A stretch of DNA of 45,107 bases from Sistotremastrum niveocremeum HHB9708. Its lineage: Eukaryota > Basidiomycota > Agaricomycetes > Sistotremastrales > Sistotremastraceae. Shown piece by piece: positions 885 to 27,063 of this stretch. The stretch spans positions 1 to 45,107 of the forward strand of contig KV419434.1 of the NCBI GenBank assembly GCA_001630475.1. Reading direction: 5' to 3'. The position numbers were made by a program, and so were the translations under genes. The notes under the pieces are model-generated. The model was not told where the DNA came from and did no database searches. It saw only the letters and a program-made list of their open reading frames with translations. Each line of letters starts with the position of its first letter. Position 1 is the first letter of the stretch.

Positions 885-3800
885 TCAGTCCTCTTGATGC
901 GCATTCTCCAAGGCTGGCGACTGGTCAAAAACCGCCCGCGAATCTGAGTCAAGGGATGGATCAGGTATAGGCTTGGACGATGAGGGAACGGGAGGAGGGT
1001 CGAGGGCGGTCATTGGAATGTCAGAATGTGAATCTGCCAAAGCGACAGCGTCGACGTCGACATTTTCTGGAGCTGGGGCGGCAGGTGAGTCGGCAGAGTG
1101 GGGGAGGAGAGGATCTGGCTGCGAGGCATCATTGAGAGGCGAGGCGTGGGACGAAGAGTGGGATGCTGATGCTGGTTGAGTGGATATACAGGCGATTGCG
1201 CCGGCGGGAGGAGAAGAGAGAAAATCGAGTTCTGCGGGTTCGGTCAATGCAATGCAGAGGAAGAGACGAGCATGACTCACCTGTCAAAAGATTGTGGGCG
1301 CGGGCGCCAGTGTCGTCGTTGGTGAGATACCGACCGCCTTGCTTTTCGTGGAAGTGAAGGTCAATGCATAGCTGGAGAAATCGACGGACGGTAGTAGGGT
1401 CTGAGAATTGTGAGAGGTCGAAGGAAGTGAGATAGGAGATGATCGTGTCGCTAGTCGTCCTCCAAGTGTTATAGTATGGATGTCGAGAGAAGTAGTCGAT
1501 GAGTGGAGAGAGATCGATGTCAGTCGGAGGAGGAGAAGCAAGAACGACAAAGACTGGGGAGAGTGTGTGCGGAGCAAGTCTGGACTGATCGACCTCTTTG
1601 AAGAATTCATTGATTTCGTGCAGAAGTTCGTGTTTCCGATCTTTGACACTGAATTCGACAACAGAAGGGTAGATGTCACGTGGATACTGAATGTATGATT
1701 TGATGAGATCGAGTCGATCGACGTGGGAGAGGATCCGCGTGACGTCATCGCTCTTCCCCTCCACAAGTAGGTCGTGGCAATGCTTCTTCGCCAAATCAAA
1801 GATTGTCTTCCGATCTCCCAACTTCCCGTTGTGATTATACAAGCACAGAACTCGGGCAACGCATTCTTCGAATGGGAGAGCAGCGAGGGATTGAAGATCG
1901 GCGTTGTTGTCGTCAAAAGAAGCGGACAAGAGTTCCTCCCTAAATCCCTCTGGGTAGGATTCCAGCTGAGGGGTAATGCCGTCAAGTGCTGCTTCAACAT
2001 GAGTGAGGGTGAATGTCAAGAGGAGGGCGACCCACTGTCCAAGAGAGTCTGGGATTCTGTACGTATCCGAGTCTGGTTTTCAGCGTCGGTATACTGCCAA
2101 AGATAAACCCTGTTCACATCGCGAGATTCTAGATCTGGATTGATACAGAGTCGGAGGAATCGACGGACAGCAGTATAGTCTGATATTCGTGAGACGCCTA
2201 AGGAAGTGAAATAGGTGATGGTCGTAGCGCTAGTCTCTCTCCAAGTGGCCGAGCGTGGATGTCGAGAGAAGTAATCGATGAGTGGGGACAGATCGATGTC
2301 AGTCGGCGGAGGAGAAGCGAGAACGTAAAAGATGATGGAGAGGGATCGAGGACCAAGTCTGGACTCATCAACAGTCTTGACGAATTCATTGATTTTGCGG
2401 AGAATCTCGTGTTTGCGATCTTTGACAATGAACTCGACAAGAGGATGTGAGATATAATCTGGACACTGAATGAAAGACGTGATGAGGTCGAGTCGATTGG
2501 CGTGGGAGAGGATCTGCGTGACGTCATCTCTCTTTCCCCCTTCAAGAAGGTCGCAGCAATGTTTCTGCGCCAAGCTAAAGATGTGATGGGGATCTCCCAA
2601 CTTCCCTTCGTCCTTGTACAAAGACAAGACGCAAGCAATGCATTCGTCGAATGCCAAAAGAGAGAGGCCACGGAGATGTTCCCCGCCAGTGTCACCAAAC
2701 TTATCGTCCCGATGTCTGAATGAGGCAGCCAAGAGTGCATCCTTAAATTCCTCTGGATACGATTCAACTCTGAGCAAAGTCTGAACCAGTTCTTTTGTCA
2801 TTTTTGGTCCCAATTCCCTCCAATTTTGCTTGTCGTAGGGTATAAATTGCTCTGCTCGAGCTTTGAGCGTCTCTCGGACTCGGACCGACGTGTCAGTCGC
2901 CAGCAGCCGATTCTCCGTCTTCTCCAACTGATCCGCTGTTCCCTCACCATTTTCAAACCAATCACTGTAAGAAAATGATCCCGCCGCACGTTCCAGGAGA
3001 ATCGGCTGGCTGGATTCCGCCATGATGTCCATGAATGCGCCCACCAACTTCTTTGGGTTGTTCGTGTTGAATTCTACCCTCCACTCAGCCAAAAAAAGAA
3101 AAAAGTGAGCCGGCGACCCTAATATCAAAGCGATCATATTGACAGCCACCAGCGGCACCAGGATCAGCAGGAAAACACCACATTCCCATACCGAGGAAAG
3201 CACGAAACCGAGTGACACGACCCACTCCAATGGGCCGGGCACATGTGCAATGAACTTCATTGGCTTTGAGAGGGTTCGGAATATCTTGAGCAGCACTGCA
3301 CTAAATGGCCCGCCGAACGGCGACACTTCGAATATCAGAGAATGCATCGTCGCCGCCGCCGCCGCCGCAGGCATAAGTGAGGAAATCAACAGGCCTACTT
3401 TCCACGCGATCAGCAGCCTCTGTGTCTCTTGATCGAAAGATCCTGCAAGATTTCGGAGTTGAGACAGAAGTCCAGTCATAAAGAGTCCGATAGATGCCAA
3501 GAGGATGATGTGGAGGCCTTCGACGAGATACTTCAGCCACCGTTTAGCTACTGTCTCTCGTGTGACGTGTCGTAATACTCGTTCCCTGTAAGTGGAACCT
3601 TCTGGCCTAATCGTTAACTTGCTCATCCACTGACGACCAAGTACAGAAAGTACGGCATCGGAAATCTAATCCTGGTCAGTGCGTTCACCCTCTCGACGAT
3701 GCATAACGATGTCGCTCACTGCGAGTATCAGTGCCAGATAATAGAGCACACAAACGTTCTGCGCCGATATCTTGGGCGCTGGCACAGGCATGCTCGTCGG

Positions 3801-4823
3801 ATTGCCTGGGTTATATGAGTTCGGAAACAAATTTTGGGTTGCAGGCACAACAAAAGCCGTGAGCACGGCTGAAAACAGAGCGATCTAGTAATCTCCCGCA
3901 TAAACGGTTCATTTCGAGTCTCGAGTAAGAGAAGAGTACGTACAAAGACTAGAGAAACATCCATGCGCTTTATCCATTCGTCCACTTCCTCTTTCGTCTT
4001 TGTCATTGCCATCTCGAATAACGCCGCGCACGTCGACTCGTCCTCCAGTGGCTTCAGTTCGTACGGTTGATCATCTGAGAGGCCTATTAGTTTAATCTAG
4101 ACACATGGGACATTTCGCCAACCTTTTATGGCGTCCTTGATCAATATATCGAATTTACTCCCGTGCTGAGAAAGGACTTCTTTGACGCTCTTCAGAAGTT
4201 CAATGACCTCAGTCATGGGATTCGGAAGCGCCGCTGCCTGTGTTTCGATTTCCCCGATCACTGCGTCGGACGCATTCTTGGAGTTAGATGGAACCGGGTC
4301 ACTTCGCCTGTTGGTATCAGACAGGGCGCCGGGCATATCGAGGGTGGCTTCGCCTGATTCAGGGGCCGTTGTGCTACGAGAGCGCGCAGTCGTTGTCGAT
4401 GGAGCGTGAGATGTAGTCGATAGAAGAGGGGACGAGGCCCTGTCAGACCCGCGAATGCCACGAGCAACCTCGTTCACAGCCTTTCGAACATTGGCTGTGA
4501 TAGAGAATTAGACAGTTCCAGGGGCACACTGCACAGACGGACGCACCTTTCAGTTGTCTTCTCGTCGAACCTTTCAGGAATTTGCTTTGCTTCCCCAACG
4601 CTTTTTTGACGTCCATCATCACCTCTCTGAGATCCTCCATTACTTTCTGCTGCTCCTTCGCCGTAGAATTTTGCTCCTTGATCAAGCTGACAAGGAGATC
4701 GAACGCCGGCGTGTTCTGGATATCTCTAAGAGGAATATTTATTGACTCGAAGGTCGTAGGGGAGGTCGGACGAGAGACAGTAGAGTGATTATCGAGACTT
4801 CGGGGTTCCGTGGGCAACGACAT
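885..4823 (-). CDS. DUF6535 family membrane protein, copy A (duplicated C-terminal module)
   Basis: Seven exons read on the minus strand: 4823-4547, 4494-4123, 4074-3944, 3884-3720, 3665-2063, 1988-1281 and 1231-885, giving about 1200 aa. The ATG at 4823 (MSLPTEP) matches the start context of copies B and D; a longer in-frame start near 4901 is less likely. The order is: coiled coil (LIKEQNSTAKEQQKVMEDL), Ser/Thr/Pro-rich linker, VKEVLSQHGSKFDILIKDAIK motif, DUF6535 with helices ending LFSAVLTAFVVPA and VEGLHIILLASIGLFMTGLL, then two tandem C-terminal modules, each containing LASPPPTDIDLSPLIDYFSRHP, and a Ser/Pro-rich tail. Paralogues have one module and 955-962 aa. The 1989-2062 intron joining the modules is my best frame-consistent choice; another pair (donor after LESRD, acceptor before LESYPEGF) is possible. 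The molecular function of the family is unknown; a membrane protein is inferred. Confidence 0.8.
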
Positions 4824-5492
4824 AGTGAACGGTGAAGCGGAGTATGAGACGCAGAAGATGATGGGGGATAGGAAGTTGAAGAGCCGGCTAAGTGCATCCA
4901 TCGAGCGTTATTAATGACCCTTGGTGCTAGCACCATTGCGCTACCATTGCCTCCTGATGGTTCAGCTCAGCTCATTCGACAGACACAGCCTTCGTGGAAG
5001 TCGTCATCAGCGAAGGAGACGAGCGTCATTGCGCGTTCTGGATTTAGCTAAGTATTTTACAGAATAACAATTCCATTGAATATGACTCACAATTTGCGGG
5101 GAGAACGTGCTATACTCGTGTAAGTCGTGTTACCAGTAATTCGACTGGGCATCAACAACGGCAAACAAAGCTCCCTCGCCAACGTCAACGACGTTGATCA
5201 TGACCCGATTCTCTTCTTCTGAATTGATTCAGCTCGCCGATCTCTCTTTAACGTCTCTCATATCACCTCGTTTGACCAACCTCCCAATGATCTCAGCGAA
5301 GAAGGAAGAACGGGGACGAATATAATAAGCGCCGAGAGCGGACGAACGATATCGACCTTGATATTTCGTCGTGACGATGCTGGACTTCAATCAAGATAAA
5401 TGATGAAGTCTTTCTTGCTCAAAGAGTGTCAAAAAATCTATCTGGATATTCTCTGGCCATCAAATCTTTTCTCTCGGCTTACATCTGAACTC
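4824..5492. repeat. Array 5'-flank cassette, unit A (internally deleted)
   Basis: Upstream region of copy A. Near 4980 it has the CACAGCCTTCGTG block also found upstream of B, C and D. It then passes directly to the far end of the cassette (AATAAGCGCCGAGAGCGG, 5324), which in unit B lies about 3 kb further out (14190). About 3 kb of cassette is therefore missing here. It should hold the promoter of copy A; no TATA box was assigned. Confidence 0.55.
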
Positions 5493-6380: not shown

Positions 6381-6659
6381 TTAGTCCTTTTTCTGCGCAT
6401 TCTCTAGAGCTGGCGACTGCTCAAAGACTGCCTGCGAATGTTGGACCGGCGAGAGGGATGGATTAGATGTAGACTCGGACGACGGTAGAGTCGGCGGAGG
6501 ATGATTGAGGGGGGTCAAGGGAATATCAGAGGGTGGATTTGCAAAAGGGACCGAGTTGAACTCGATATTTTCTGGAGCTGGGGGAAGCGAGTCAGCATAA
6601 GGGAGGAGAAGATGGTCTAGCTCTGGGGAATCGTCAGGAGTCGGGGTACGGGACAGAGA
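6381..6659 (-). pseudogene. Orphaned 3' end of copy B last exon
   Basis: This open stretch encodes the Ser/Pro-rich C-terminal tail expected of copy B, ending in SPALENAQKKD and a stop, just as A ends in SPALENAHQED and D in PALENAHNED. Removing both 746-bp elements and two of the three 8-bp target copies joins 8168 directly to 6659 in frame. That restores 92 residues after SSH. No stop or frameshift is seen in the orphaned part, so the separation looks recent. It now lies 1.5 kb downstream of the stop codon and is probably untranslated. Confidence 0.8.
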
Positions 6660-6667
6660 GTGAGATG

Positions 6668-7413
6668 TAGTGTTGCAAAATATGATATGATATGATATTT
6701 TACCCAAATTTTGGAATATCAATATCGATATCGATATCACAAATCCCAGAATCTTAGAAATATCATATCAATATCGCGATATCGATATTTTGTTTTCAAA
6801 ATCAAAATATCATATCGATTTAAATCGATTTTTATCACTTGTGCGATATAAATCAGTTTGATATCAGTTTTTATCAGTTTAAATTGCAATTTTTTCTCAA
6901 ATCCTTCTGTAATCTACATATATCCTCCAGTATATCATGATATCATGGTACAGTGGTGCTATATCAGCCTCTACATACAGTTTCCAGTGATATCTGTGAG
7001 TGAGTGATGACCTCATGGGAAGATTCAGCACCTGTGGGACCTGTGATGGAGGGTGATGTGGGTGACATCCGGTACCCAGAGGGTGGGAACTTGCCTATAT
7101 ATGAGAGATAACACAGTATTATAGCATATAGGAGGCTATATATCACTTGGAAGGTGATATATACTGAGATATTGAGCCCCATATACCCCAAATTGCACCC
7201 CAAATTGACCCCAGATGACCCCAAAATCACATCAGTTTTTATCAATTTTGATCAATATTTTGCGATATCGCAAATTCTGGGAAGGGCGATATTATCATAT
7301 CAATATCACCTCCAAGATCAGAATATCATATCAGATATCATATCGCAAAGTGATATGATATGATATGATATGCGATATTTTGCGATATGAAATATCATAT
7401 TTTTGCAACACTA
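6668..7413 (-). mobile_element. hAT-type non-autonomous element, 746 bp (element 1)
   Basis: The ends are TAGTGTTGCAAAA and its reverse complement. The flanks carry the 8-bp duplication GTGAGATG at 6660-6667 and 7414-7421. Terminal CA/TA-GTGTTGCAA repeats with 8-bp duplications are characteristic of the hAT superfamily. The body is AT-rich with GATATGATATG tracts and encodes no transposase. It is an inverted, nearly identical copy of element 2; a few substitutions are visible. The strand given is relative to element 2 taken as plus. Confidence 0.9.
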
Positions 7414-7421
7414 GTGAGATG

Positions 7422-8167
7422 TAGTGTTGCAAAAATATGATATTTCATATCGCAAAATATCGCATATCATATCATATCATATCACTTTGCGATATGATAT
7501 CTGATATGATATTCTGATCTTGGAGGTGATATTGATATGATAATATCACCCTTCCCAGAATTTGCAATATCGCAAAATATCAATAAAAACTGATAAAAAC
7601 TGATGTGATTTGGGGGTCATCTGGGGTCAATTTGGGGTGCAATTTGGGGTATATGGGGCTCAATATCTCAGTATATATCACCTTCCAAGTGATATATAGC
7701 CTCCTATATGCTATAATACTGTGTTATCTCTCATATATAGGCAAGTTCCCACCCTCTGGGTACCGGATGTCACCCACATCACCCTCCATCACAGGTCCCA
7801 CAGGTGCTGAATCTTCCCATGAGGTCATCACTCACTCACAGATATCACTGGAAACTGTATGTAGAGGCTGATATAGCACCACTGTACCATGATATCATGA
7901 TATACTGGAGGATATATGTAGATTACAGAAGGATTTGAGAAAAAATTGCAATTTAAACTGATAAAAACTGATATCAAACTGATTTATATCGCACAAGTGA
8001 TAAAAATCGATTTAAATCGATATGATATTTTGATTTTGAAAACAAAATATCGATATCGCGATATTGATATGATATTTCCAAGATTCTGGGATTTGCGATA
8101 TCGATATCGATATTGATATTCCAAAATTTGGGTAAAATATCATATCATATCATATTTTGCAACACTA
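7422..8167 (+). mobile_element. hAT-type non-autonomous element, 746 bp (element 2)
   Basis: Same terminal repeats and length as element 1, with GTGAGATG at 7414-7421 and 8168-8175. The two elements share the middle GTGAGATG, so the site reads target-element-target-element-target. The right terminus, read on the minus strand, supplies the stop codon of copy B. No coding capacity. Confidence 0.9.
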
Positions 8168-11043
8168 GTGAGATGATGCTCCTGGTTGAATGGATGTAGA
8201 GGCGATCGCGCCGGTCGGAAGAGAAGGGAAAGAATTGAGTTCTGCCGTCACGGTCAATAGAATGCAGAGGAAAAGACGAGGATGACTCACCAGCTAACAG
8301 CTCGCGGGCACGATCGCGAGTTTCATCACTGGTGAAACACCGATAGCCGTCCTCATTGCGCAATTGTGTATTAACGCATTGCTGGAGGGATCGACGGACA
8401 GCAGTAGAGTCTGAGAATTGTGAGAGGTCGAAGGAATCGAGATAGGCAATAATCGCGTCGCTAGTGTCCTCCCAAGTGTCATAGCGTGGATGTCGAGAGA
8501 GATAGTCGATGAGCGGGGAGAGATCGATGTCAGTTGGAGGAGGAGAAGCGAGAACAAGAAAGACACGGACGAGGGATCGAGGATTGAGTCTGGACTGATC
8601 GACCGTCCTCAAGAATTTATTGATTCCGTGGAGAATTTCGTGCTCGTGATCTTTGACAATGAATTCAACAAGAGAACGGTCCACGCCATTTAGATGCTGA
8701 ATGTAAGATTTGATGATGTCGAGTCGATCGACGTAGGAGAGGATCCGCGTGACGTCATCGACGTTTCCCTCCCGAATAAGGGTGCTGCATTGTTTCTCCG
8801 CCAAGTTAAAGATCCTCTCCCGATCTCCCAACTTCTCCTCGTGGTTATACGAGCACAACACTCGAGCGATGCATTCCTCAAATGGGAGAAGAGAGAGACC
8901 GCGCAGATCGGCGTTGTCTGCTCCGAATGACGCGGAGTAGACCTCAGCATTGAATCGCTCGGCTATAGGACAGACGTTGGCAAGGACTCTCATCGCCTTC
9001 TGAGTGATCTCCTTTGATTGTTCGTGATGATATTTGACAAACTGAGTCATTCGTGCTCTGAGCGTCTCACGCACTCGGACGGAGGTATCTGTCGCCCTCA
9101 GTCGATTCCACGTCTTCTCCAATTGATCTGCCGTTCCCTTCCCATTCTTGAACCATTCTACATACGAGAATGACCCTACCGCTCGTTCCAATAGTTTTGG
9201 ATCGCTCGCTTCCGCAATCAAATCCATAAACGCGCCGACAAGTTTCTCTCGATCACCCTGGTCCAAGTCGATCCTCCAATCATCGACCAGCAATGCACAC
9301 AGCCACAACGGCCAAGCAATGATCTTGCAACCAGCAGGGAGTATTCGATAAAACGGGATACTTTTGATTCGGCGATCCAGCCACGCCGCTATCTTGTCCA
9401 CTTTGTATTCCAACCAGTCGAAAGAGACGCTCAGGACTCTTGCGGACTTGAAGAGCACTTTGCTGAATGGCCCTCCGAACGGTGACACTTCATATACTAG
9501 CGCGTGTGTTGTTGCGGCCAGGACCACAACCATGATACTACTGGAGAGGATGATGCCAAGGACCCATGCTGCGAAGATCCTAGGTGTACTTCTCTCGAAT
9601 GATCCACTGAGGTTTAGAATCTGATAGAGCAGACCGGTCATGAAGAGACCAATAGACCACAGCAGCAGGATGTGGAGTCCTTCGACAAGATACCCAAGCC
9701 AGCGTTTAGCCAACTCTTCGCGGGCAATATGACGGAGGAGTCGTTCTTTGTAAGTGTTGCCAACGGGTCTGGTAGTCAACTTGCTCATCCATTGACGACC
9801 AAGAACGGAGAGGACAGCGTCCAAGATCTATGTTTTTGTCAGGGTCCATTGTGCGGTTCACATTCTTCAATCCACTCACGGCAAGGATCAACGCGAGATA
9901 ATAAAGAATGCACACGTTCTGAGCCGACGTGTTGGGAACTGGTGGAGGCGAGTCGGTTGGGTTGCCAGGTGAGTTATTGGACGAAGGGAAAAGGTTCTGG
10001 TTGGCAGGCACAACGAACGCAGTAAGCACGGCCGAGAACAACGCGATCTGCGAATCAAAATTAATCGATGCATTGGATCTATCAGGAGAACGACACTTAC
10101 AAAGACTAACAAAACGTCCATTCTCTTTATCCATTCGTCCACTTCCTCCTTTGTCTTCGTCATCGCCATCTCGAACAATGCTGTACAAGTCGATTCGTCG
10201 TCCGGTGCCTTCAGCTCGTATGGCTGATCATCTGGCACCAACTGTCAACTAACGCTCGGTGGTTATCTCAGAACGCGTACCTTTTATAGCATCTCGTGTA
10301 AGTATGTCAAATTTCCTGCCGTGCTCGATCAGGGTCTCCTTCACAGTTTCCATGGTTTTGCTCAATAGCACGAGAGTGTCGTGAATAGGATTACTTGGAG
10401 GCCTCGCCGCTGTCTCTATTCCTTCCGCGGTCGTGTCATCGGCGCCTATTTGTTCTCCAAGTCTCTCAGGTCGATTAACTGAAAGACCCTCAACGTCTGG
10501 GCTTGGGGCTGTCGTGAGAGTTTGATCACCGTCAGTGGATTCTGGCATTTGATGCATGGGAGGTGGCGGTAGATTAGGGGATGGGGATATAGAGTCGCTA
10601 GCTTTCAGTTTCATCGGGCTCATGTCATCTTCAGGATCAAGTTTCTCATCTAGATTCTTTGCGTCAGTCATTTTGAAACGTGATGCGATATCATACTGAC
10701 CGTCTGAAACAGCCCGCGCCGATATTCCATGATCCTGCAAAGCTCTCTTCATATCCTTCATGACCTCCGTTTGTTCCTCCAGCGCGTCCCTTTGCTTCTG
10801 TGCGATGAAGGCTTGCTCTCTTAAGGCTATCCTCTGCTCTTCCAGTATCAGGTTCTGCTTTTCGAGTGCATCTTGCTGTGCTCTCGACGTAGCATTTTGC
10901 TCTTCAATCAATCTTATGAGCCGGTTGAACATCGGCGTGTCGAAGGGATCAGGGGTAGCCGGCAGATTGGACCCCTGAGTGATGGAAGATGGGAGGGAGC
11001 GGAACGGAATATTTGGATCAGGAGGTTCTGAAGGGATGGACAT
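8165..11043 (-). CDS. DUF6535 family membrane protein, copy B (C-terminus truncated by transposon insertion)
   Basis: Six exons on the minus strand: 11043-10701, 10649-10281, 10231-10101, 10047-9880, 9827-8291 and 8241-8165, about 874 aa. The ATG at 11043 begins MSIPSEP. A long coiled coil (LIRLIEEQNATSRAQQ and further Gln/Glu-rich heptads) precedes the VKETLIEHG motif. The DUF6535 region has hydrophobic helices around ALFSAVLTAFVVPA, CILYYLALILAV, GLHILLLWSIGLFMTGLLYQ and ILSSSIMVVVLAATTHALV, with another possible helix at IIAWPLWLCALLV. The single C-terminal module holds LASPPPTDIDLSPLIDYLSRHP. The last exon should encode a tail of about 116 aa. Instead an in-frame TAG at 8165-8167, the first three bases of an inserted hAT-type element, ends it after SSH. 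The missing 92 codons survive intact at 6381-6659. A truncated but functional protein or a recent pseudogene are both possible. Confidence 0.82.
9166..9677 (-). other. 512-bp tract identical to copy C (gene conversion)
   Basis: Inside exon 5 of copy B, covering the third to fifth membrane helices and the LVGAFMDLIAEASDPKLLERAV segment. By eye every base equals 16529-17040 in copy C. Just outside, differences appear at once (C/T at 9165 and T/C at 9678) and then continue at roughly one in seven to ten bases. Confidence 0.85.
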
Positions 11044-12218
11044 GGTGGATGAGGGGTGGATGCGAATGATGGGAGGGTTCGGGGTTCAAGAGCAGGCAGT
11101 TTCATCGTCTTCACGGCGTGTTATGAGGGACAAGTTGAGACCACCATGGTACCATTGCCTCATGTGTAGCTTCTGGAGGGTTCTTTGGCCAATGGCGTTG
11201 TTTTACTCGAGCGTCTTGTCTGGCCGGCACAGCCTTCGTGTGAACGGTGCCTCGATGTACCATAAATCTTTAGAATATTGAGAGACATTCTTCGAGTTTA
11301 GAATGCCATTTTTGAGGTAATACGCACCTTGGTTTTCGAATGTTTCAAAGAGGTTTCGCTTGCACAGATTTTCAGTTCCGTTGAAGCTCGAGAGCGTGCC
11401 TAGGTTTAGTAAGTTCCCACGCTCCTTGCACGTCGTTCTTCACTATCAACGACGTCCATAGGCTGGATGCTGAATCATTCATTAATTATTTCCAACGATA
11501 TGACTCTGGATTGGCATCAAGGAGCGCCTCTCGCTTCGTTGATATAGAAAAAACTCACATGGCTGCCACAAGTTTCGGATGACTCTGAGCGCTAACCATC
11601 TGCAGGCTGCTGGTGAATCGACGTTGCACGGATATCTCAAGAGACTCCAGTTCTCTTTCCCTCACCGTCTAGCAGTATTTCCATCTAGCTATCGCCCTGG
11701 ACTGTCCTTGGAATCTTCTTATTGGTCTGACACGCACCCTCTTCCGCTGATTTCTCTTCCGCGAGATCTGAGGCTGCGCTCGACTCGAGCCCATAGACCT
11801 TCAGGTCGCAGATGAAAGATGGTTTAGATGAATCCAGTAAGGATATTCGGCAGTCACGGTGCAAGAGATCTCGGTTCTAGCTACATTGATAGCTCGAGAA
11901 GCAGGATGGGGTATATCAGTCGACTACCCGTGCGTCTTCTGTGCTTTCTTTTACCTCCGTTTGGAATTCAATGTATCGCATCACCGACAGCATACACTAA
12001 GGTCCATCAAATTGATTGGGTGGCTTTCGTACGATGCTACATCTGCTCGACGGCTCGGCGCCTCGTCCTCAATATCACTATAAAATCTTCACAATATCCT
12101 CAGTGATCCCTTACGCGTCCCAATCTCGGCCTCTGACCTGGATATTGACACTGGCTTGCTCGCCTCCCAGCTGCAGGAGCACTCTTGATAAGTACCCAAA
12201 TGTTCGCATGCATGTGGT

Positions 12219-12413: not shown

Positions 12414-13152
12414 CCTATGCTTTACGCTCTTTTGCGCCTGCCGCCACTTTCTTCAATTCTCAAAAACCTCGCGTCGATACGAAGTCAATCTGTCTTACGA
12501 TGTCTTACTCGTAGCGTATCGGATAAGCTATCGACGAATCATCTAATTCGTAACTTTCAAACGAGTGGTCTTGTCTTGTCTTGTCTTGTCTCGACCTCGA
12601 CCTCCTGCGAAGAACTCTATACGATCTTCTGTCTCCCGTGATCTTCGCCGTAGATGGAGCGCATATCTGGATTCATCTTCATGTCTGACGCAAGCGGAAA
12701 CTGATGAGCTATTCAAATCCATCACGCCTTGATCCTCTCCTCAACGTCTGGCCATCCTTCGAAGCCCATGTCCACCTTGGTAGGGTACAGCGCGGCCGAG
12801 AAATCTTCTAGTCAATCGCACTGTCAATTTGCAAGCCTTTCTTCACGCACACCGAGTAAGCCAGTCTTGCACCACCCCCTGCCTTCGAAAATGGTCTCAT
12901 GCCCTTCCGTTCCGTGATGGACTCAGTGACTCACTCAACCTCTACACTGCCGAAGAAGGACCAAGAGCCGCCGCAGTCAATACACTACTGTAATACAACT
13001 CTGGCGGCAAGCTGATTACCTTTGTGTCGTTCTTGAACCAGAACGCAAAGAACGAAGATCGAGAGCAAGATCGAGAGTCGAGGGGAAGTGCGGGTCTGAT
13101 TTCAGTGATCTGCGGGGGCGAATTTCTTCATGATTTTCGTTGAGCTCGAGAC

Positions 13153-13898
13153 TAGTGTTGCAAAAACGGATATTAAATATCGCAAAATATCGCATATCAT
13201 ATCATATCATATCGCAAAGTGATATGATATGTGATATCAGTATTCTGATTTTGGAGGTGATCATGATATGATAATATCGCCCTTCCCAGAATTTGCAATA
13301 TCGCAAAATATCAATCAAAACTGATAAAAACTGAGGTCATTTTGGGGTTATCTGGGGTCATTTTGGGGTGCAATTTTGGGTATTTGGGGCTCAATATCTC
13401 AGTATATATCACCTTCCAAGTGATATATAGCCTCCTATATGTTATAATACTGTGATATCCCTCATATATAGGCAAGTTCCCACCCTCTGGGGACCAGATG
13501 TCACCCATGTCACCCTCCGTCACATGTCCCACAGGTGCTGAACCCTCCCATGAGGTCATCACTCAGTCACAGATATCACTGGGGACTGCATGTATAGGCT
13601 GATATAGCACCACAGTACCATGATATCATGATATACTGGAGGGTATATGTGGATTAGAGAAGGTTATGAGAAAAAATTGCAATTTAAATTGATAAAAACT
13701 GATACCAAACTGATTTAAATCGCACAAGTGATAAAAATCGATTTAAATCGATGCGATATTTTGATTTTGAAAACAAAATATCAATATCGCAATATCGATA
13801 TGATATTTCCAAGATATTGGGATTTGCGATATCGATCACGATATCAGTATTCCAAAATTTGGGGAAAATATCATATCATATCATATTTCACATCACTA
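13153..13898 (+). mobile_element. hAT-type non-autonomous element, 746 bp (element 3)
   Basis: It starts TAGTGTTGCAAAAACGG and ends in TCACATCACTA, with a perfect 8-bp target duplication CTCGAGAC at 13145-13152 and 13899-13906. It has the same orientation and internal order as element 2, including the CCCACCCTCTGG block, but clearly more substitutions and a decayed right terminus, so it is an older insertion. The length is again exactly 746 bp. No transposase. Confidence 0.9.
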
Positions 13899-15254: not shown

Positions 15255-18200
15255 TTATTTACGGGCATTCTCTAAAGCTGGCGACTGAGCGAAAACGGCC
15301 CGTGAATCTGAGGGGAACGGTGGATCGGATTCAGACTCAGACGATGCAATCATGTGTGGAGGGGGAGTAAGGGTGAGCATAGGAATATCAGAGTCTGAAT
15401 TTGCAAAAGTGGCAGGGTCGGCATTGATATCTTCAGGAGCTGGGGAAAGGGAGTGAGCAGGAGAAATGAGCGGACGGTCTGGCTGTGAGGCATCGTTGGG
15501 AGGCGAGGTGTGAGACGCAGAGCGGGACGCTGATGCTGGCTGCTTGGATGTAGAGGCGATTGCGCCAGTGGCAGGAGAAGAGAGGCGAATCAGGTGATCG
15601 AGTTCTGCGGGTACGGTCAATAGGATGTAGAGGCAGAGACGAAGACGACTCACCTGCTAACAGATCGCGGGCGTGAGCACGAGTATCGTCACTATTGAAA
15701 CACAAATGGTTGTCCACATCGAGGAATGGGTTATCAACGCATTGCTCGAGGAATCGAAGGACGGCAGTGGAGTCTGAGAATTGTGAGACGCCGAAGGAAG
15801 TGAGATAGGCGATGATCGTGTCGCTAGTCTCCTTCCAAGTGAGATTGTACGGATGTCGAGAGATGTAGTCGATGAGCGGGCACAGATCGATGTCAGTCGG
15901 AGGAGGAGAAGCGAGAACAAGAAAGACTTGGGAGAGGGATCGAGGACCAAGTCTGGACTGATCGACCATTTTGACAAATTCGTTGATTCCGCGCAGGATC
16001 TCGTGCTTGCGGTCCTTGACAATGAATTCGACAACATCAGAGTAGATGACATATGGAAACTGGATGTGAGTTTTGAGGAGGTCGAGTCGATTGACGTGGG
16101 AGAGGATCCGCGTGACGTCATCTCCCTTTCCCTCTTCAAGAAGGTCGTGGCAATGTTTCTCCGCCAAGTGAAAGATTGTCTGGCGATCTCCCAACTTCCC
16201 CTCGTGGTTATACGAGCACAACACACGGGCGACGCATTCCTCCAATGGGAGAAGAGCGAGAGGACGGAGATCGGTGTTGTCTGCTCTGAATGACGCGTAG
16301 TAGACCTCAGCGATGAATCGGTCGGCTAAAGGACAGACGCTGGCAAGGACTTGGATCTGCTTCGGAGTGATCTCCTTTGATTTTTCGTTCTGATCCTTGA
16401 CAAACTGAGTCATCCGCGCTCTGAGCGTCTCCCGGACCCTGATTGAAGTGTCCGTCGCCGTCAATCGATTCCACGTCTTCGCCAACTGATCAGCTGTTCC
16501 CTCCCCATCTTCGAACCATTCAACATATGAGAATGACCCTACCGCTCGTTCCAATAGTTTTGGATCGCTCGCTTCCGCAATCAAATCCATAAACGCGCCG
16601 ACAAGTTTCTCTCGATCACCCTGGTCCAAGTCGATCCTCCAATCATCGACCAGCAATGCACACAGCCACAACGGCCAAGCAATGATCTTGCAACCAGCAG
16701 GGAGTATTCGATAAAACGGGATACTTTTGATTCGGCGATCCAGCCACGCCGCTATCTTGTCCACTTTGTATTCCAACCAGTCGAAAGAGACGCTCAGGAC
16801 TCTTGCGGACTTGAAGAGCACTTTGCTGAATGGCCCTCCGAACGGTGACACTTCATATACTAGCGCGTGTGTTGTTGCGGCCAGGACCACAACCATGATA
16901 CTACTGGAGAGGATGATGCCAAGGACCCATGCTGCGAAGATCCTAGGTGTACTTCTCTCGAATGATCCACTGAGGTTTAGAATCTGATAGAGCAGACCGG
17001 TCATGAAGAGACCAATAGACCACAGCAGCAGGATGTGGAGCCCTTCGACAAGGTATCCGAGCCAGCGTTTAGCAAGTTCTTCCCGAGCGAGGTGACGTAA
17101 GAGTCGCTCTTTGTACGTGCTGCCAACAGGCCTAGTGGTCAACTTGCTCATCCATTGACGCCCGAGCACAGATAGCACAGCATTCAGAATCTAGCAATTC
17201 ATCAGTATCTCACTTCCGTCCTTTTCATCAATAAACTGACAGCGACGATGAGGGCCAAGTAATACAAGATGCAGACATCTTGCGCTGACGCATTCGGCAC
17301 GGGAGGCGGAGAGTCGGTTGGATTTCCGGGGGTGTTGTTTGAAGAGGGGAAGAGATTTTGAGTAGCAGGCACCACGAATGCAGTGAGTACGGCAGAGAAT
17401 AGAGCAATCTAACATGTTTTTGTCACTGATGGCTCTGCAATTCTCATATAAGCTGCACTTACGAAGACCAGAGAGACGTCCATCCGCTTTATCCATTCGT
17501 CCACCTCTTCTTTCGTCCTAGCCATCGCGATTTCGAATAGAGCTGTACAGGTCGACTCGTCTTCTACTGGCTTCTCATCGTACGGCTGATCGTCTGCGCA
17601 TGACCATTAGCTTCACTGTCGAACGATATGCGGCCTGGCACGTACCTTTCAGCGCATCTCGAATCAAGACGTTCAACTTGGTTCCGTGGTCCAGAAGAGT
17701 TTCCTTCACGCTTTTCATCGTCTCGTTCAGTATTAAGATGGCGCTATGAATTGGATCTTGAGGGGAATCTGGTATCGGGGGTGCAGCGGCTTCTTCGACC
17801 CCCACGTGAGCAGCGGTCTCGCCGACGGCTTGTTGAGCGTCTCCGCCGGGTGTTTCCACAGGTGTTGGGTTCTGGCGAGACTCTGTAGCGACGTTGCTTG
17901 GGAGTGCTGCGGGACCGAGTTCTGGATTCGTCGAGGTTGATTCGGGAAGAGGTTCCGTTGAATGTATATCAGCTGATGCGTTGACTGCGTTCCGAGGTAC
18001 GTTATCGTCATCTATATCCAAATTAGCCTTCCAAATCATCCAATCCATCATATATCCAACCTTGTGTCCCAACGCTTTCTGCACCATAACTCGTGTTCCT
18101 ATGGCCGCGTAGTGCACTTCTCATGTCTTCCATGACTTCGCGTTGTTGTTCCAGAACTCGTCTTTGCTCGTTCCCAATGACATTTTGCTCTTCCAACGCG

Positions 18201-18376
18201 ATTTTTTGCTCCCTTACAGTGGCGCTGAGCTCCTCGATCAAGCCAATTAAGCGATTAAAAAGTGGAGTGTCGAAAGGGTCTATAACAGGAGCCGACGACG
18301 CCGGCGCTTTCGAAGAGGGGATATGTGAGTCGGGCCAGGGGCTTGGGGGATCTTGGGGATCTGGCGGCATCGACAT
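15255..18376 (-). CDS. DUF6535 family membrane protein, copy C
   Basis: Six exons on the minus strand: 18376-18061, 18011-17646, 17593-17463, 17408-17241, 17190-15654 and 15604-15255; the sum is 2868 nt, or 955 aa, with all phases consistent. The ATG at 18376 (MSMPPDP) is the first real ATG; the frame also opens upstream at a TTG. Approximate layout: coiled coil 35-100, acidic/Pro-rich linker, VKETLLDHGTKLNVLIRDALK near 205-227, DUF6535 from about 250. Hydrophobic helices lie near 265-285, 305-330, 373-397, 411-435 and 489-509. The C-terminal module spans about 510-840, with LASPPPTDIDLCPLIDYISRHP and VVEFIVKDRKHEILRGINEFV, and is followed by a Ser/Pro-rich tail. Exon 5 is 1537 nt, exactly as in B, and holds a 512-bp tract identical to B. 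Function is unknown. Confidence 0.85.
16529..17040 (-). other. 512-bp tract identical to copy B (gene conversion)
   Basis: Partner of 9166-9677, in exon 5 of copy C. The tract begins and ends abruptly inside the exon, while the rest of exon 5 shows many substitutions between B and C. Confidence 0.85.
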
Positions 18377-19395
18377 TGGCGGAGACAATCAGAGGTTGGG
18401 AAGGGGACAAGGGTGGTGGTGGGAGACGAGGGAAAAGAGCATATTGTGATGCGTCCATTCAGCGATATGAAGACCTGGGTTGGTTTACCATGGTACCACT
18501 ACTCCATGTACCTAGTTCTTTGGCCAATAGCATTCCTTTCGTCGAGCGTCTTGTCTGACGAGCACAGCCTTCGTGTGAACCGTGCCTCAACGTGCAATAG
18601 ATCTCTGAAATATAGAGAGACATTATTTGAGTGCAAAATATCATTTCTGAGTCGAAACGTACCTTGTCCCCGGAATGTCTTGGAGGATGTTCCGCATGAA
18701 AAGAATTTGCTTCCGTTCAAGCCTGAAGCGCGTGCCTGAGATGATGTTCCCACGTTCCTGCTTGTCGTCCACTATCAGCGACGTCCATGGGCCGGATGCT
18801 CATTCATTCCTTGATTATTTTCGAATATATTACTCTAGATTGGTATTCAGAAGTGGCATTTGCTTCGTTGCTGGAGGAAAGACTTATATGGCTACCACAA
18901 ATTATGGATGACGCAGAGCGCTAACCAGCTTAATACTAACCATCTGCATGCTGCTGGTGAATCAACGTTGCACAGATATCTCAAGAGACTCTAGCTCTTT
19001 TTTCCTCACTGCCAGAATTTCCATCTGGCTGTCGCTTTGCCCTGAACTGTCCATCAAATCCTCTGGTTGTTACTGAGACGTATCTCCCCCGACCGCGCCA
19101 TCCTCATGCGCCAAATCCGATGTGGAGATCGAATGGAGCTCTTCAACGTTTGAGAATTTGGGGACATGGATCGCAAGGATATTGATGGCTTAGGAGGCAA
19201 TCATGGCGACAGGACGGATGTTGGTTCTGGGTATCATGAGAGCTCAGGATGCATGATATCGGTCTGCTGTCAGGTACGTCCTCAGGTCTTCTTTTGGAAT
19301 CTAACATGTCACATCACCAACAGCATGCGCGAAGACACCTCTGCTGGATTGGTTGGCTTTCGTATGATGCTATATCTTCTCGATGGTTCCCCAGC

Positions 19396-19815: not shown

Positions 19816-19962
19816 TCCCCAGCGCCTCATTCTTAATGTCGGTATCAGATCTTCATCTTATCTCATGGATCCCTTGATCGTCCTAACCTCAGCCTCTGGC
19901 CATTCTATTAACACTTACTTGCTCGCCTCCCAGCTGCAGGAGCACTGGTCCATCCGTCTGTG

Positions 19963-20286: not shown

Positions 20287-21422
20287 GGTGCTTTACGACG
20301 TCTTTAGCGTAGCATATCGGATTTATACCATCGACGAATCATCCGCTTCGTGACTGCCAAACGGGCATCCTCGTCCTGTCTTGCCGTAGATTTTACGTAA
20401 TATCCTTCCGTCCGTCATCTTCGTCGAAAATTTTGGCGCGCGAGTATCTGGACTGACCTTCACATCTGACGAAAACGGGAGCTGGAAGTCTGTTCGAGCC
20501 ATTCCCTATATTCAAAGCCGCCTCATCTCTCTTGGTGGCCCCATAGCCCTTCTGCGCTTTGATAGAATCCGTGTCGGCCAAGAAATCGTTGCGTCGACTT
20601 TTCTGTCAACACGCACATCTTTTGTCAGAATCACCTCAGTCATTCAGTCGTCAAATCAAGATTCATCTGCACTATGACTCAACATTCAACAATAGATTCG
20701 TATCCTTTTGTGTCGTGATGGACTCACTGCTTCGGCCCACTCAACTTCTGTGATACAAGTCTGGCGACTCGCTGAGTACGTTCATTCGTTCTTGAACCGG
20801 ACACCAATTCACAAATATCGAAAGCTAGATCGAGAGTCGAGGGATGGTACGGTTCGTATTGAATTCATGTGGGATACGGAGACCGTGTGACATAATTTTT
20901 GAGAATGATACTTGGTGACTGCGAACTTGAATCTTCCTTAGTCGGTTGTGATATCCTTGCCTGTCTTATTCCGATCGTATACCAAACACGACACCTCTCA
21001 AACTACTTGCGGAGGATATTTTCTCTCCATCGCTCGATTTACCAGAGAGCACCAACAAAGCCAAACAAGCTTCTTCAACATCGTCGACGACGACACCACC
21101 ACCACGACGGCCTCAACCAGATTCTGTCTCTCAACATCAATCAAGCTCAAAATCTCCTTTATCAATTCTGTCATATCACCTCGGTGGACGCACCTGTGGA
21201 TCATTCAGTGAAGGAGAAACACCCGAGACCGAAGAAATAAGCGCTCAAGCGTCGAACGACATCAGACATCGCGAGAGCTCGAGACCTCTTCTTGACACTG
21301 CTGGACTCCGGAAAGACAAGATAACTGATCAAGTCCTTCTCGTTGAACGAGTGTCTGACCATCGTCGACAATCTATCTTGGATATTCTCTGGCAATCAAA
21401 CTTTTTTTCTCCGCTTACATCC

Positions 21423-22329: not shown

Positions 22330-25300
22330 TCAGTCCTCGTTGTGCGCATTCTCCAGAGCTGGCAAATGGTCAAAGGCTGCACGGGAATCCGCAGCCATGG
22401 GTGCCTCGTTTTCAGACTCGGACGACGCACTCATGGGTGGAAGGTGAGTGAGGGTGACCATGGGAATAGCAGAGTCTGTATCTGCTAATAAAGGGACGGT
22501 ATCGAGATCGATATGTGCAGGAGCTGGGGAAGGGAACTCGGTAGAAGGGGATAGTAGTAGGGGGTCTGGGTGTTGGGAATCGTAGGGAAGCGGGAGGGTT
22601 GTAGAGCGAGATAGTGATTCTGGTTGGATAGATGTAGACGCGATTGCGCCGGTGGCAAGAGAAGAGGTGGAGTTAAGCTCTGCGGGTACGGTCAATAGAA
22701 TGCAAAGGAAGAGCCGAGGATGACTCACCTGCTAATAGATCGCGGGCACGAGCGCGAGTCTCATCACTTGTGGGATACCCGGAGCCGTCCTCATCGCGGA
22801 ATCCGTTATCAACACATTGTTTGAGAAACCGATGGACAGCAGTAGAGTGTGAGATTTGTGAGAGGGGGAAGGAGTTGAGATAGCCAATGATAGTGTCGCT
22901 AGTCTCGTCCCAGGTGAGCCAGTATGGATGTCGAGAGAAGTAGTCAATGAGTGGAGACAGATCGATGTCAGTTGGAGGAGGAGAAGCAAGAACAGAAAAG
23001 ATTTCAGAGAGGGATTCAGGACCAAGTCTGGACTGGTCGATCGTCTGCACGAATTGATTGGTTCCGCGTAGAATATCGTCTTTCCGATCCTCGACAATGA
23101 ACTTGACAACTTCAGACTCGATGTAACCTGGATTCTGAATGTAAGATTTGATGAGGTCGAGTCGATCGACGTGGGAGAGGATTCGCGTGACGTCATCTCT
23201 GTTCCCCTCCAAAAGAAGGTTGTGGCAATGTTCCTCTGCCAAGTGAAAGATCCACCTCCGATCTCCCAACTTCCCCTCGTGGTGATACGAGCACAGAACT
23301 CGCGCAATGCATTCCTCGAATGGGAGAAGAGAGAGGGGTCGGAGATCCTGGTTGTCTGGTTTGAACACATCCTTTGATATCGAGTCCCGAAAGTGCTGAG
23401 GGTATGAATGAATGGCAAAGAAGAACTGGAGATGCTCCCCTGTTAGTTTCTCTCCCAGTTCCCTCAGTCCTCGACTGGTACATGGCACAAATTCCCCCAG
23501 ACGAACTCTGAGCGTTTCACGCACTCGAACTGAGGTGTCTGTCGCCATAATTCGATTGTAGGTCTTCCCTAGTTGATCCACTGACCCCTGCCCGCCATCA
23601 AACCATTCTATATATGAGAATGATCCTACCGCGCGTTCCAATAGCCTCGGATCACTCGCTTCGGCGATCAAATCCATGAATGCCCCCACCAGTTTATTCT
23701 TATCCTCCGTATCAAACTCCACTCTCAACCATAAAATCGCAAGGGATGGTACCCAAATGGGCGCAGTGGTCAAAAGCAAAAGCACCAACAGAACAGTACG
23801 CCAGGACATCCAACTGGCGGCGATACGTGCCTCCATCCACTCGTCAAACTTGCCATTTTTGGACCACTCGATCGCCAGCACGCAGAGACTCCAGAAGGTC
23901 TCAGCTATCCTGACAATAAGGTTGCTGAATGGCCCTCCAAACGGAGATACTTCATAGAACAGAGCGTGTATAGTCGACGCCGCTACCACCCCCAGGATGA
24001 TTGAAGAGAAACACATGCCTACTTTCCACGTATTGAGCAATCTCGGTGCGTCCTCATCGAATGATCCGGCCAAATTTCGGAGTTGATAGAGCAGGCCGGT
24101 CATGAATAGGCCGATCGATGCCAGAAGGATAATGTGAAGGCCTTCGACGAGAATCCTCAGCCACCGTTTGGCCAGTGCCTCCCGTGCGAGATGGCGTAGT
24201 AACCGTTCCCTGTAAGTTGATCCCTCTGGTCGGGTTGTCAGCTTGCTCATCCACTTACGACCGAGGACGGACAGCACCGCGTCCAAAATCTATTCCAACT
24301 TCAGCATCGATATTTCAGGTTTGTGCTCGCTGAAATTCGCGCACCGCAAGGATGAGAGCTAAAAAATGCAGTATGCAGACGTTCTGTAAGGATATGTCGG
24401 GAAGTGCAGGAGGAGAGTCTGATTGACTACTGGACGATGGAAAGAGATTTTGGATCGCAGGAATGAGGAATGCAGTGAGTACTGCAGAAAACAGAGCAAT
24501 CTAGACCTTTTTTGTCACTGATCATGGTTTGGTCTATGAATAGATCACACGTACAAACACCAAAGAGACGTCCATCCTTTTAATCCACTCGTCGACTTGT
24601 TCTTTCGTCCTAGCCATCGCTATCTCAAATAGCGCCGTACAAGTCGATTCGTCTTCTAAGGGTTTCTCGTCGTACGGCTGATCGTCTACACATGACGGTT
24701 AGCTCTGTTGTTGAACGATAAGTTGCCTGGCACAAACCCTTGAGCGCATCTCGGATTAAGACATTCAATTTCGAACCGTGATCCAATAGAGTTTCCTTGA
24801 TGCTTTTCATAGTCTCATTCAATATCATGATCGCATCGTGAACATGACCTTTTGAAGTCTCGGAGTTCGATGGTGCGGGTTCAGTCGCGTCCTCAGCTCT
24901 CGTATTGCTCACGATCTCGGTAGCAGCGAATTTTGACGACTCTTCAGCGACTTGATCATAGAAGCCATCCGATTCTGTTATGGAAGTGGGGACTGCCTCT
25001 GTCACTGACGATGCCAGAGGATTAGGCGATGGAGGTTGTTGGTGAGGATCCTGAGACGAGTCCCTCGCTACGAGCACGGGACGACTTGGCTCCGCAGAAA
25101 TTCCTTGGGCTGCATCTTCTGATTGACAACATGCATTTCGGTTCAAGCTGACTAACAAAGATCTGAAATTAAACGAACCTTTTGGTCTAATTTCCGGCAT
25201 GACATCGACCGCTTCTGTGATCTGAATGTGGCGAGCATACAAGGCTCGCCTCATATCTCTGATCAAGTCTCTCTGATCCTCCAATATTAGGTTCTGCTTC

Positions 25301-25488
25301 TCAAGAGCCTCTCGTTGCGCGTGTGAGGTCGCATTTTGGTCTTCGATTAGTCTGATCAACCGATTGAACATCGGTGTATCGAAGGGATCAGACGCTGCTG
25401 CCAGACTGGACTGTGGAGCTTCGGGTATAGGGATGAAATCCATCGTGGCATGTGGGTGTATATCTGGAGGGCCTGGAGGGGCGGACAT
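22330..25488 (-). CDS. DUF6535 family membrane protein, copy D
   Basis: Six exons on the minus strand: 25488-25179, 25118-24738, 24685-24555, 24500-24345, 24289-22729 and 22679-22330; the sum is 2889 nt, or 962 aa, with consistent phases. The ATG at 25488 starts MSAPPGPPDIHPH. The coiled coil (NRLIRLIEDQNATSHAQREALE) and the IKETLLDHGSKLNVLIRDALK motif match the family. DUF6535 helices are clear (GLHIILLASIGLFMTGLLYQ and others), but the stretch between the fourth helix and the C-terminal module differs from B and C; TVLLVLLLLTTAPIWVPSLAIL adds a strong hydrophobic segment. The C-terminal module keeps LASPPPTDIDLSPLIDYFSRHP. Exon 4 is 12 nt shorter than in B and C, and exon 5 is 24 nt longer. 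The exon 4 donor is GTGCGC, a usable variant. This and C are the best-preserved copies. Confidence 0.85.
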
Positions 25489-26390
25489 GGTGGATGACGA
25501 GTAGGATGGTGATGGAAGAGGGGGGTCAAAAGAGGATCACGCTGTTACATGCTGCGTGCGTCCATTATCATGAAGAACCTAGGTAATGCCACTGTGGTAG
25601 CACTTTCTCTTTGACCAATAGCATCGGCTTCGTCGTCTTCTTGCCACAGCCTTCGTGTGAACGGTGCCTTGATGCGCAATAACTCTCTGAAATACTGAGA
25701 TAGATTATGACCATGTATAATATCATTTTGATGGGATACACACTTGTCCTTCGAATGTTTTGGAAGAGTTTAGCTCGGACAGAATCTGGTTCCGTTCAAG
25801 CTTGAAGCTTGAAACGCGTACTCGAGATTACGTTCCCACGCTTCTGCTCGTCGTTCTCCACCATCAGCGATGTCCATCAGTTGGATGCTCTGCCACTTTA
25901 CGATTCATGCGAGTGAAAGCAGTCTGGATTGACATCAAAGAGAGCTTCCCGGGTGATGGATGTTGACAAGACCGACAGGGCTTCGACAATCCTCGGATAA
26001 CGCTCGGCTCCAACTATCTGCAGTCAGCCGGCGAGTCGACGTTGCGCAGATATCTTAGAAGGCTCTAGCTCGCCTTTTCCTCTCAGTCAGATAAAGGAAC
26101 CTTTTCTTCAAGATTGCCAAAAGGTGTCCATCAACTCGTCTTGTTCTTGATACGCGTCCTCTCACCGCACAATCTTCGCCGGCCAGATCTGATGTGGTCT
26201 TCGAGTTGCGCTCTTCACCGTTCGAGAACTCTAAGCCATGGATCTGCAAGGATTTTGATAACTTAGGAGGCAATTAATGAGGCGAAATTTGGACCGATGT
26301 CGGTTCTCGGTACAATGATAGCTCAGGGTGGGACATATCGGTCTACTGCTAGGTGCGTCCTCTGTTCTTCTTTTCTCTCGTTTGAGATCT
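25489..26390. repeat. Array 5'-flank cassette, unit D (truncated)
   Basis: Upstream region of copy D with CCTTCGTGTGAACGGTGCC (25650). It matches the first 0.9 kb of the unit B and C cassettes, then stops within a TCTTCTTTT-type segment where it meets exon 3 of remnant E. The distal 2-3 kb present in B and C are absent. Confidence 0.6.
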
Positions 26391-27063
26391 GACAGGGCCG
26401 TACAAGTGGATTCATCTTCCATCGCTTTTTGCTCGTAAGGCTGATCGTCTAGTACCCGCTGTCAAATCATCACATGGAAAAATCCAACACCACCCACCTT
26501 TGAGCGCGTCCCTTGTCGAAATATCAGATTTCTTGCCATGGGCTATCAATATGTCCTTCGCACTTCCAAGGCTATCTTTGACAGCCTCCATTGCTGTGCT
26601 CATGTGCTGAAGTATTTCGTGGATTGGACTTTTTGCCGTCTCCTTCGTCGGCGCTTCAGCCTCGGATTCTAGCATAGGTTGTTGATGAGGCGTCGTATAT
26701 ATGGAATCTGTATGGACATCAGGATTTTATTACAGCAATTTCATAAAACCAATTTCATGCTCAAAGAACGGAAGTCGTCAGCCAGAACCACGTACCTCGT
26801 GTTTCGCCTCGTGTTGCATCTCGACCCTGGATTACGAGATTTTCTATGGCTTTTTTGACCTCCTTGGTCAAGTCTCTTTGCTCTTCTAGAAAGTTCCTTT
26901 GCTCTTTCATTGTGGCATTTTGCTCGTGGATCAATCCGAGCAATTGGTGGAATAGTGGATGATCGAGCGAGTCTGGCGTTGGCTTCGCGTGTGAATTGAG
27001 CGGCTCTCCAGGAGCCTCAGCTGTCATGACGATGGTGGATGATTGGTCTGTGATGTTTGGCAT
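26231..27063 (-). pseudogene. DUF6535 family 5' remnant, copy E (chimeric end)
   Basis: Exon 1 (27063-26796, MPNITDQ) has the coiled coil LIHEQNATMKEQRNFLEEQ. Exon 2 (26707-26498) has the VKDSLGSAKDILIAHG motif and RDALK. Exon 3 starts at 26448 with DDQPYEQKAMEDESTCTAL. Near 26390-26397 the homology to other copies stops. The frame then runs into DNA matching the flanks of B and C, ending at a stop at 26231. The spliced frame stays open (696 nt, 231 aa) but lacks every membrane helix and the C-terminal module. This fits a deletion that joined the flank of D to exon 3 of a fifth gene. It is most likely a pseudogene; a soluble coiled-coil fragment is possible if it is expressed. Confidence 0.75.

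Follow-up and report, generated by a model that had tools for sequence, protein, structure and literature searches.

Several described gene families bear comparison with the one reported here. In the Podospora anserina HNWD family, which includes HET-D and HET-E, repeats are exchanged within and between loci and there is selection at the interface, according to an excerpt of PMC1805685. The wtf drivers of Schizosaccharomyces undergo conversion between copies, and their segment trees disagree (PMC6526906, in excerpt). For basidiomycetes, a passage from PMC8229728 states that the mechanisms of somatic incompatibility "remain completely unknown." Here, we describe an array of genes for DUF6535 membrane proteins in Sistotremastrum niveocremeum HHB9708. 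It lies in the first 45 kb (45,107 nucleotides) of contig KV419434.1, which we refer to as C41 and which is one of 111 contigs in an assembly of 34.7 Mb. This whole stretch is called the window. The array consists of four head-to-tail DUF6535 genes (A to D) and a 5' fragment (E), all on the minus strand.

We observed exchange of sequence between the array copies, concerted evolution of a C-terminal module, a contrast in constraint between this module and the membrane half of the protein, a double module in gene A, and breakage of B and E. As in HET-D/HET-E, to judge from the excerpt of PMC1805685, concerted evolution in this multigene family affects a C-terminal domain, within loci as well as between them, and spares the rest of the protein. 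If the module here does confer specificity, then the mode of recognition domain exchange within a gene family would also be the same. However, our proteins are membrane embedded, and their module is not a short repeat array. A Pfam scan of parts of the proteins revealed neither an NTPase domain (NACHT or other) nor WD repeats, which are features of HET-D/HET-E and fungal NOD-like receptors (NLRs). Because the NTPase and WD repeats were not found and positive selection was not demonstrated, we do not class the DUF6535 family with HET-D/HET-E, although it may function in a similar way. What is already known is the DUF6535 Pfam family (PF20153; IPR045338), and exchange of its module was not found in the literature under the family's names. 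A preliminary description of this DNA stated that DUF6535 has no assigned role, which fits the literature. The domain is a table row in the excerpt of a Flammulina CO2 study, it is absent from the seed families in a passage from a survey of fungal NLR N termini (PMC9815663), and nothing pertinent to the wider family was among the literature matches listed.

The DUF6535 profile matched A to D above the Pfam cutoff of 23.9 bits (38.6 to 40.5 bits for exon 5), placing their membrane part in this family, and it matched 26 of 29 exon 5 members. It was the only family above the cutoff in the protein parts examined. The Pfam entry is confined to the membrane domain, and neither the C-terminal module nor its concerted evolution is covered by any entry. 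Hydropathy plots of A to D revealed a long hydrophilic N-terminal region, which we describe as coiled-coil-like by eye rather than from a coiled-coil program, and four common membrane helices, with a basic loop past helix 2. A variable hydrophobic segment follows (exon 5 alignment columns 121 to 245). An altered membrane segment had been described for D. That is true, but it is not peculiar to D, because most copies differ greatly in this segment. A conversion tract (see below) accounts for the identity of B and C in it.

The module is predicted to be all helical and about 200 to 250 residues long. An AlphaFold2 model built from five window sequences only was helical with one short strand pair (mean predicted local distance difference test score [pLDDT], 81.6; predicted template modeling score, 0.73). 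For the whole of exon 5, the mean pLDDT was only 62.3, and therefore the model of the membrane part is unreliable. The module had no sequence relative among solved structures. Its weak Foldseek neighbors included many alpha-helical repeat proteins of the HEAT/ARM/TPR type, which are all helical like the module, with 14-3-3 chains as the other large group. However, no structural match of the module in PDB or BFVD reached an E value of ≤0.001 and no sequence match was found, and the resemblance is one of fold class only. By eye, the DUF6535-only members L004 (C4) and L006 (C22) have a different C terminus; their sequences indicate that the membrane domain pairs with more than one kind of C-terminal part.

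The evidence for concerted evolution comes from silent sites. Rates, trees, and the pairwise homoplasy index (PHI) were computed for 18 of the 22 aligned exon 5 sequences (153 pairs), leaving out three divergent copies (C38_131, C25_114, and C38b) and one with a premature stop (C38_118). The fraction of fourfold sites that differed was 0.63 in exon 3, 0.68 in exon 4, and 0.57 to 0.65 in exon 5 columns 1 to 360, whereas consecutive 60-column windows of the module gave 0.43, 0.21, 0.29, and 0.35. When codon usage was corrected for, columns 1 to 120 were at 0.89 of saturation and the module core was at 0.47. The three divergent copies served as relatives outside the exchange group (C25, C38:232 kb, and C38:131 kb). 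Compared with them, the module differed at 0.60 to 0.64 of sites and the membrane half at 0.68 to 0.73. Module silent sites are therefore near saturation against outside relatives and are not intrinsically slow, so that the low divergence within the group reflects exchange rather than slow mutation. Module divergence was 0.29 between C41 and C38, 0.23 within C41, and 0.32 within C38. The module evolves in concert across the array copies, and also between contigs. Divergence of the flanks at fixed offsets was tried as a neutral clock and rejected, with values close to the shuffled baseline (upstream, 0.556 versus 0.577 shuffled; downstream, 0.555 versus 0.572, with quartiles of 0.344 to 0.578). 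Flank matches found by blastn are biased toward alignable blocks.

Low silent divergence could also be an artifact of codon bias, silent constraint, or antisense coding. The module does have its own third-position composition. C and T predominate at its fourfold third positions (0.40 and 0.29), those of the membrane half are about even in the four bases, and its Val and Ile codons mostly end in C (18 copies, module core columns 394 to 594). However, the difference in saturation remains after the codon usage correction, module silent sites differ freely from those of the three outside relatives, and antisense stops occur in the module core of all 18 copies. We tested and rejected these causes on those grounds and give them almost no credence.

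Individual exchange events were also found. The tract scan covered all 22 aligned exon 5 sequences. The conversion tract proposed between B and C is real. It runs from the membrane half to the hinge, and under a stricter rule it has 1 mismatch in 524 columns, within diverged flanks (71% and 84% identity). Two copies in the second array, C38_56 and C38_63, share a tract of 717 columns with 1 mismatch and flanks of 60% and 68%. The C38_63 module is a mosaic, because its start is like that of window gene C, on the other contig, and its end is like that of C38_56. In seven pairs, tract identity was graded from 0.895 to 0.999. In a GENECONV-like scan of 231 pairs, C38_56/C38_63 ranked first, B/C second, and C/C38_63 sixth. 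The lowest P value possible with 200 shuffles was reached by 122 pairs, many of which are not separate events because module divergence is generally lower. PHI detected recombination over exon 5 (z = -31.9) and in the hinge (P = 0.001), and more weakly in the membrane half (P = 0.011). Trees of the membrane half, hinge, and module were each rejected by the other two data sets (all six approximately unbiased test P values were ≤3.2e-4).

Misjoined or chimeric repeats in the assembly might have produced such tracts, as well as the twin element in gene B described below. The assembly does have contig ends that are 100% identical and unjoined (C108/C111, 1,328 bp; C91/C19, 6,381 bp). However, the tracts begin and end within genes, between diverged flanks, in several pairs and with graded identity, and the group-wide step in silent divergence is independent of any single join. 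We regard an assembly artifact as very improbable. The 100% identity of the compared ends also led us to reject C108/C111 and C91/C19 as alleles and to treat them as contig-end overlaps, which involve units L026, L028, L041, and L042.

Gene A was thought to have gained a module, and it has. Its extra exon encodes a second module that is 57% identical to the first and that, at the nucleotide level, matches the modules of C and D best. Two kinds of C-terminal ends occur in the family. In type 1 (B, C, D, and others), the module ends in ..DLLA or ..ELLA and is followed by an intron and a tail ending near PALENA. In type 2 (C38_19, C38_29, C38_88, and C111_2), the module ends in ..Q(T/S)LLD, followed by an intron and a tail that starts near AAL(D/N). 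Gene A has a type 2 end after module 1, retains the intron and an AALDG start, and then continues with a type 1 module and tail. Judged from these sequences, the simplest reading is that ectopic recombination fused two gene types. Other units also have two separate module matches, for example, near C39:216 kb and C19:445 kb.

We propose that A to E are members of a large birth-and-death family of multi-exon membrane proteins. Each protein would have a coiled-coil-like and disordered N terminus, four conserved DUF6535 helices with a variable hydrophobic segment, a hinge, an all-helical module, and a disordered tail. Tandem duplication acts on units of about 7 kb, and C-terminal modules keep moving among copies, including those on other contigs, through ectopic conversion or unequal exchange. 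As a result, the module evolves in concert, whereas the lineages of the membrane half are old, have stayed separate, and are strongly constrained. We consider it highly probable that duplication with ectopic module exchange and concerted evolution is the mechanism at work. The rapid turnover and ectopic exchange anticipated in the preliminary description were borne out more strongly than claimed, because one half of a module is shared between contigs, the module is homogenized across the group, and the segment trees are mutually incompatible.

The preliminary description had also called for dN/dS (omega) by domain. Constraint turned out to be neither uniform nor relaxed throughout, being strong in the membrane half and less so in the module. 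In nine pairs with a membrane half dS of <1, omega was 0.05 to 0.13 in the membrane half and 0.44 to 0.70 in the module, in the same direction in all nine. Among all 153 pairs, the membrane half was usable in 24 (median omega, 0.08) and the module in 153 (median dS, 0.45; median omega, 0.50). Parsimony counts gave 0.13 for the membrane half, 0.31 for the hinge, and 0.61 for the module, and protein identity was 76% in the membrane half versus 65% in the module. Given its low values, the membrane half is in use and not decaying.

Variability was periodic in 3 of 11 module helices (P = 0.0005, 0.0075, and 0.0075, uncorrected), with the variable side roughly opposite the hydrophobic side (187, 202, and 145 degrees). 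The helices with a variable face are at about 336 to 352, 416 to 427, and 449 to 465 of exon 5 of C. On the modeled helices this variable face is probably exposed, and a face that is driven to vary and one that is merely free to do so both fit. In a split-sample test, the most variable sites had ratios of nonsynonymous to synonymous change (pN/pS) of 1.15 and 1.28 in the other part of the genes, and six settings gave an omega of 1.14 to 1.54. Picking sites in the same way in the membrane half and hinge gave 0.58 to 0.77. In 12 simulations with no site above 1, the ratio averaged 1.02 and 1.00 and peaked at 1.27 and 1.20; the observed 1.15 is thus within the simulated range, and 1.28 is just above all 12. 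Because simulations without positive selection nearly reach it, we do not claim this excess as positive selection.

The family is very large. There were at least 151 DUF6535 matches in the genome (150 of 312 candidates scored) and at least 153 module matches for each of two queries (150 candidates scored). These gave 170 gene units in 71 clusters, 95 with both parts, 35 with DUF6535 only, and 40 with the module only; units were grouped by a simple distance rule, and at least 3 of them (two on C91 and one on C108) were counted double because contig ends overlap. The closest relatives of the window array are in a second array of 17 units (C38:12-134 kb) and on C108/C111 and C42. By our count, this array group has 27 units (5 on C41, 17 on C38, 4 on C108/C111, and 1 on C42). 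In 19 of them, the reading frame of exon 5 was uninterrupted across the membrane half and all or most of the module; B is among the 19 despite its interrupted tail exon. The broken or partial units are E, C38_41, C38_76, C38_118, the module-only C38_122 and C38_126, and two C108 units. The second array also has intergenic direct repeats (C38:114903-115419 and 117131-117647, 517 bp with 1 mismatch; C38:21951-22225 and 26100-26374, 275 bp and identical). Fourfold TTAGGG was absent from the assembly, which is uninformative about a telomere link, and a uniqueness search of the DNA beyond the window was uninformative as well, finding nothing.

What might such a family do? The membrane half could be a conserved anchor or executor and the module an exchangeable surface that binds a variable partner. 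The family would then be a sensor repertoire, most plausibly for self/nonself or immune-type recognition. By analogy with HET-D/HET-E, a recognition function is plausible. The preliminary description had suggested a recognition or incompatibility role, which is unsupported so far, and several results weigh against it. Only 2 of 157 module sites had a P value of <0.05 in a site-wise test for positive selection, fewer than the 8 expected by chance. Neither this nor the split-sample test demonstrates positive selection. The nine close pairs with contrasting omega values are not independent, having genes in common, and one of them, B-C, includes its own tract. PHI was not significant within the module core of the 18 sequences (P = 0.057). 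Foldseek found no match to the module model with an E value of ≤0.001 in PDB or BFVD (best, 0.054 and 0.047), which leaves it without a confident structural relative. At least 8 of the 27 array group units are broken or partial, and relaxed selection would give the same result. Finally, proximity to NLR-like genes is weak, at about a twofold genome-wide excess. For DUF6535 units and NLR-like genes, 3 of 47 were within 5 kb (1.9 expected), 7 within 10 kb (2.9), 10 within 15 kb (3.8), and 10 within 25 kb (5.4), with uncorrected P values of 0.004 to 0.28. NLR-like NPHP3_N genes are beside DUF6535 units at C8:489-497 kb, C22:123-138 kb, and C34:128-135 kb.

These proteins might instead be an ordinary, highly duplicated family of membrane adaptors or sensors without a recognition role, in which the module is less constrained and its homogenization is a passive by-product of tandem DNA. 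The failure to find site-wise positive selection fits this, as do the simulations that nearly reproduce the split-sample excess and the many broken copies, and the location of the variability, opposite the hydrophobic side, is what any exposed surface would show. However, passive exchange would not be expected to halt close to where the module begins, and the membrane half of the same exon is near saturation even though its protein sequence is the better conserved one. The family is also large and widespread. An ordinary family with a free C terminus is possible, and about as likely as recognition. Alternatively, these could be selfish killer genes that spread by drive and diversify through nonallelic gene conversion, as the wtf meiotic drivers of fission yeast do. 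The wtf genes likewise encode membrane proteins in several exons, undergo pervasive conversion between copies, and yield segment trees that disagree (PMC6526906, in excerpt), a likeness of description. The family here is far larger, and its many lone copies, its strongly constrained membrane half, and the size of its helical C-terminal module are not known from wtf. We consider drive quite unlikely. Returning to module exchange combined with recognition, we hold only tentatively that these are membrane-anchored sensors with an exchangeable binding module.

The positions of the array features are given in Table 1. Spliced models and exon matches upheld the description of five head-to-tail units. 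The models of A to D are open frames of 1,210, 914 (B, to a stop within an inserted element), 955, and 982 amino acids (aa). For C, the first intron (18060-18012) was our choice among several open alternatives. As described, exon 3 is 131 nucleotides (nt) in all four; exon 4 is 156 to 168 nt, and the large exon 5 is 1,537 to 1,683 nt. Sister copies also match all 43 residues of exon 3, and so its fixed length is ordinary family conservation. Repeat families D11 and D13 to D18, together with blastn flank matches, verified that flanking DNA was duplicated along with the genes. Fragment E is indeed a 5' fragment and matches only the first 21 of the 43 exon 3 residues. It looks like the remnant of a deletion because the DNA between E and D resembles the upstream flank of other copies.

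Table 1. Features of the DUF6535 array, in window positions
Feature	Position	Strand	Remarks
Gene A	885..4823	minus	7 exons, 1210 aa; spliced open frame; DUF6535 above cutoff; order: coiled-coil-like and disordered N terminus, DUF6535 membrane part, two C-terminal modules, disordered tail
Extra module exon of A (module 2)	1281..1991	minus	Intron joins module 2 to module 1
Remainder of B tail exon past inserted element	6381..6667	minus	Continues into family tail, end SPALENAQKKD
Inserted element in B tail exon	6668..8167		Two inverted copies of one 746-bp noncoding repeat
Gene B up to stop inside inserted element	8145..11043	minus	914 aa with last intron unspliced
Conversion tract in B (membrane half to hinge)	9150..9689	minus	540 columns, 3 mismatches to C; flanks 71% and 84%
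B upstream flank	11180..11331		Duplicated at 18515-18666 (C) and partly at 25645-25728 (D); repeat families D11, D13
B-C intergenic stretch	12099..13112		Copies in C-D interval (12099-12183 = 19862-19946; 13027-13112 = 20786-20871); repeat families D17, D18
Gene C	15255..18376	minus	6 exons, 955 aa; intact in model used
Stretch of C module common to C38_63 (other contig)	16093..16419	minus	327 columns, 10 mismatches; flanks 71% and 83%
Conversion tract in C, partner of B tract	16513..17052	minus	Same 540-column comparison
Gene D	22330..25488	minus	5 exons, 982 aa; intact in model used
Fragment E	26384..27063	minus	5' fragment, ATG at 27063; ends inside exon 3, beside D upstream flank

The transposon truncation reported for B proved to be a pair of 746-bp repeats that interrupts the tail exon. 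The arms are 99% complementary and 8 nt apart, so that the pair forms a near-perfect 1.5-kb hairpin within the gene. The element ends are TAGTGTTGCAAAA, and the 8-mer CATCTCAC is present on both sides and between the two copies. We take the element to be hAT-like. A third copy is between B and C (13153-13898), and the matches listed include 11 full-length genome copies with at least 90% identity (the query included) and three with 74 to 75%. The twin element may be two insertions on one target or an assembly effect. Outside the array, the window contains a major facilitator superfamily transporter gene (PF07690; 39528-40664, plus strand). It also contains a dienelactone-hydrolase-like stretch (PF01738; 41965-42354 and 44394-44545) whose DNA is tandemly repeated about 2.3 kb on (85%, 152 bp).

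Even if these proteins do not function in recognition, they clearly illustrate concerted evolution that is limited to one domain within a single exon. This is a very large genome family with almost no literature, and it provides a concrete, testable candidate for somatic incompatibility. A broader idea, which we think unlikely but worth stating, is that DUF6535-module proteins might be a recognition repertoire of mushroom-forming fungi, with a membrane-embedded executor and an exchangeable helical specificity module that ectopic conversion re-deals among copies. If that were true, they would be a missing molecular layer of basidiomycete somatic (in)compatibility or of antiviral or antibacterial immunity.

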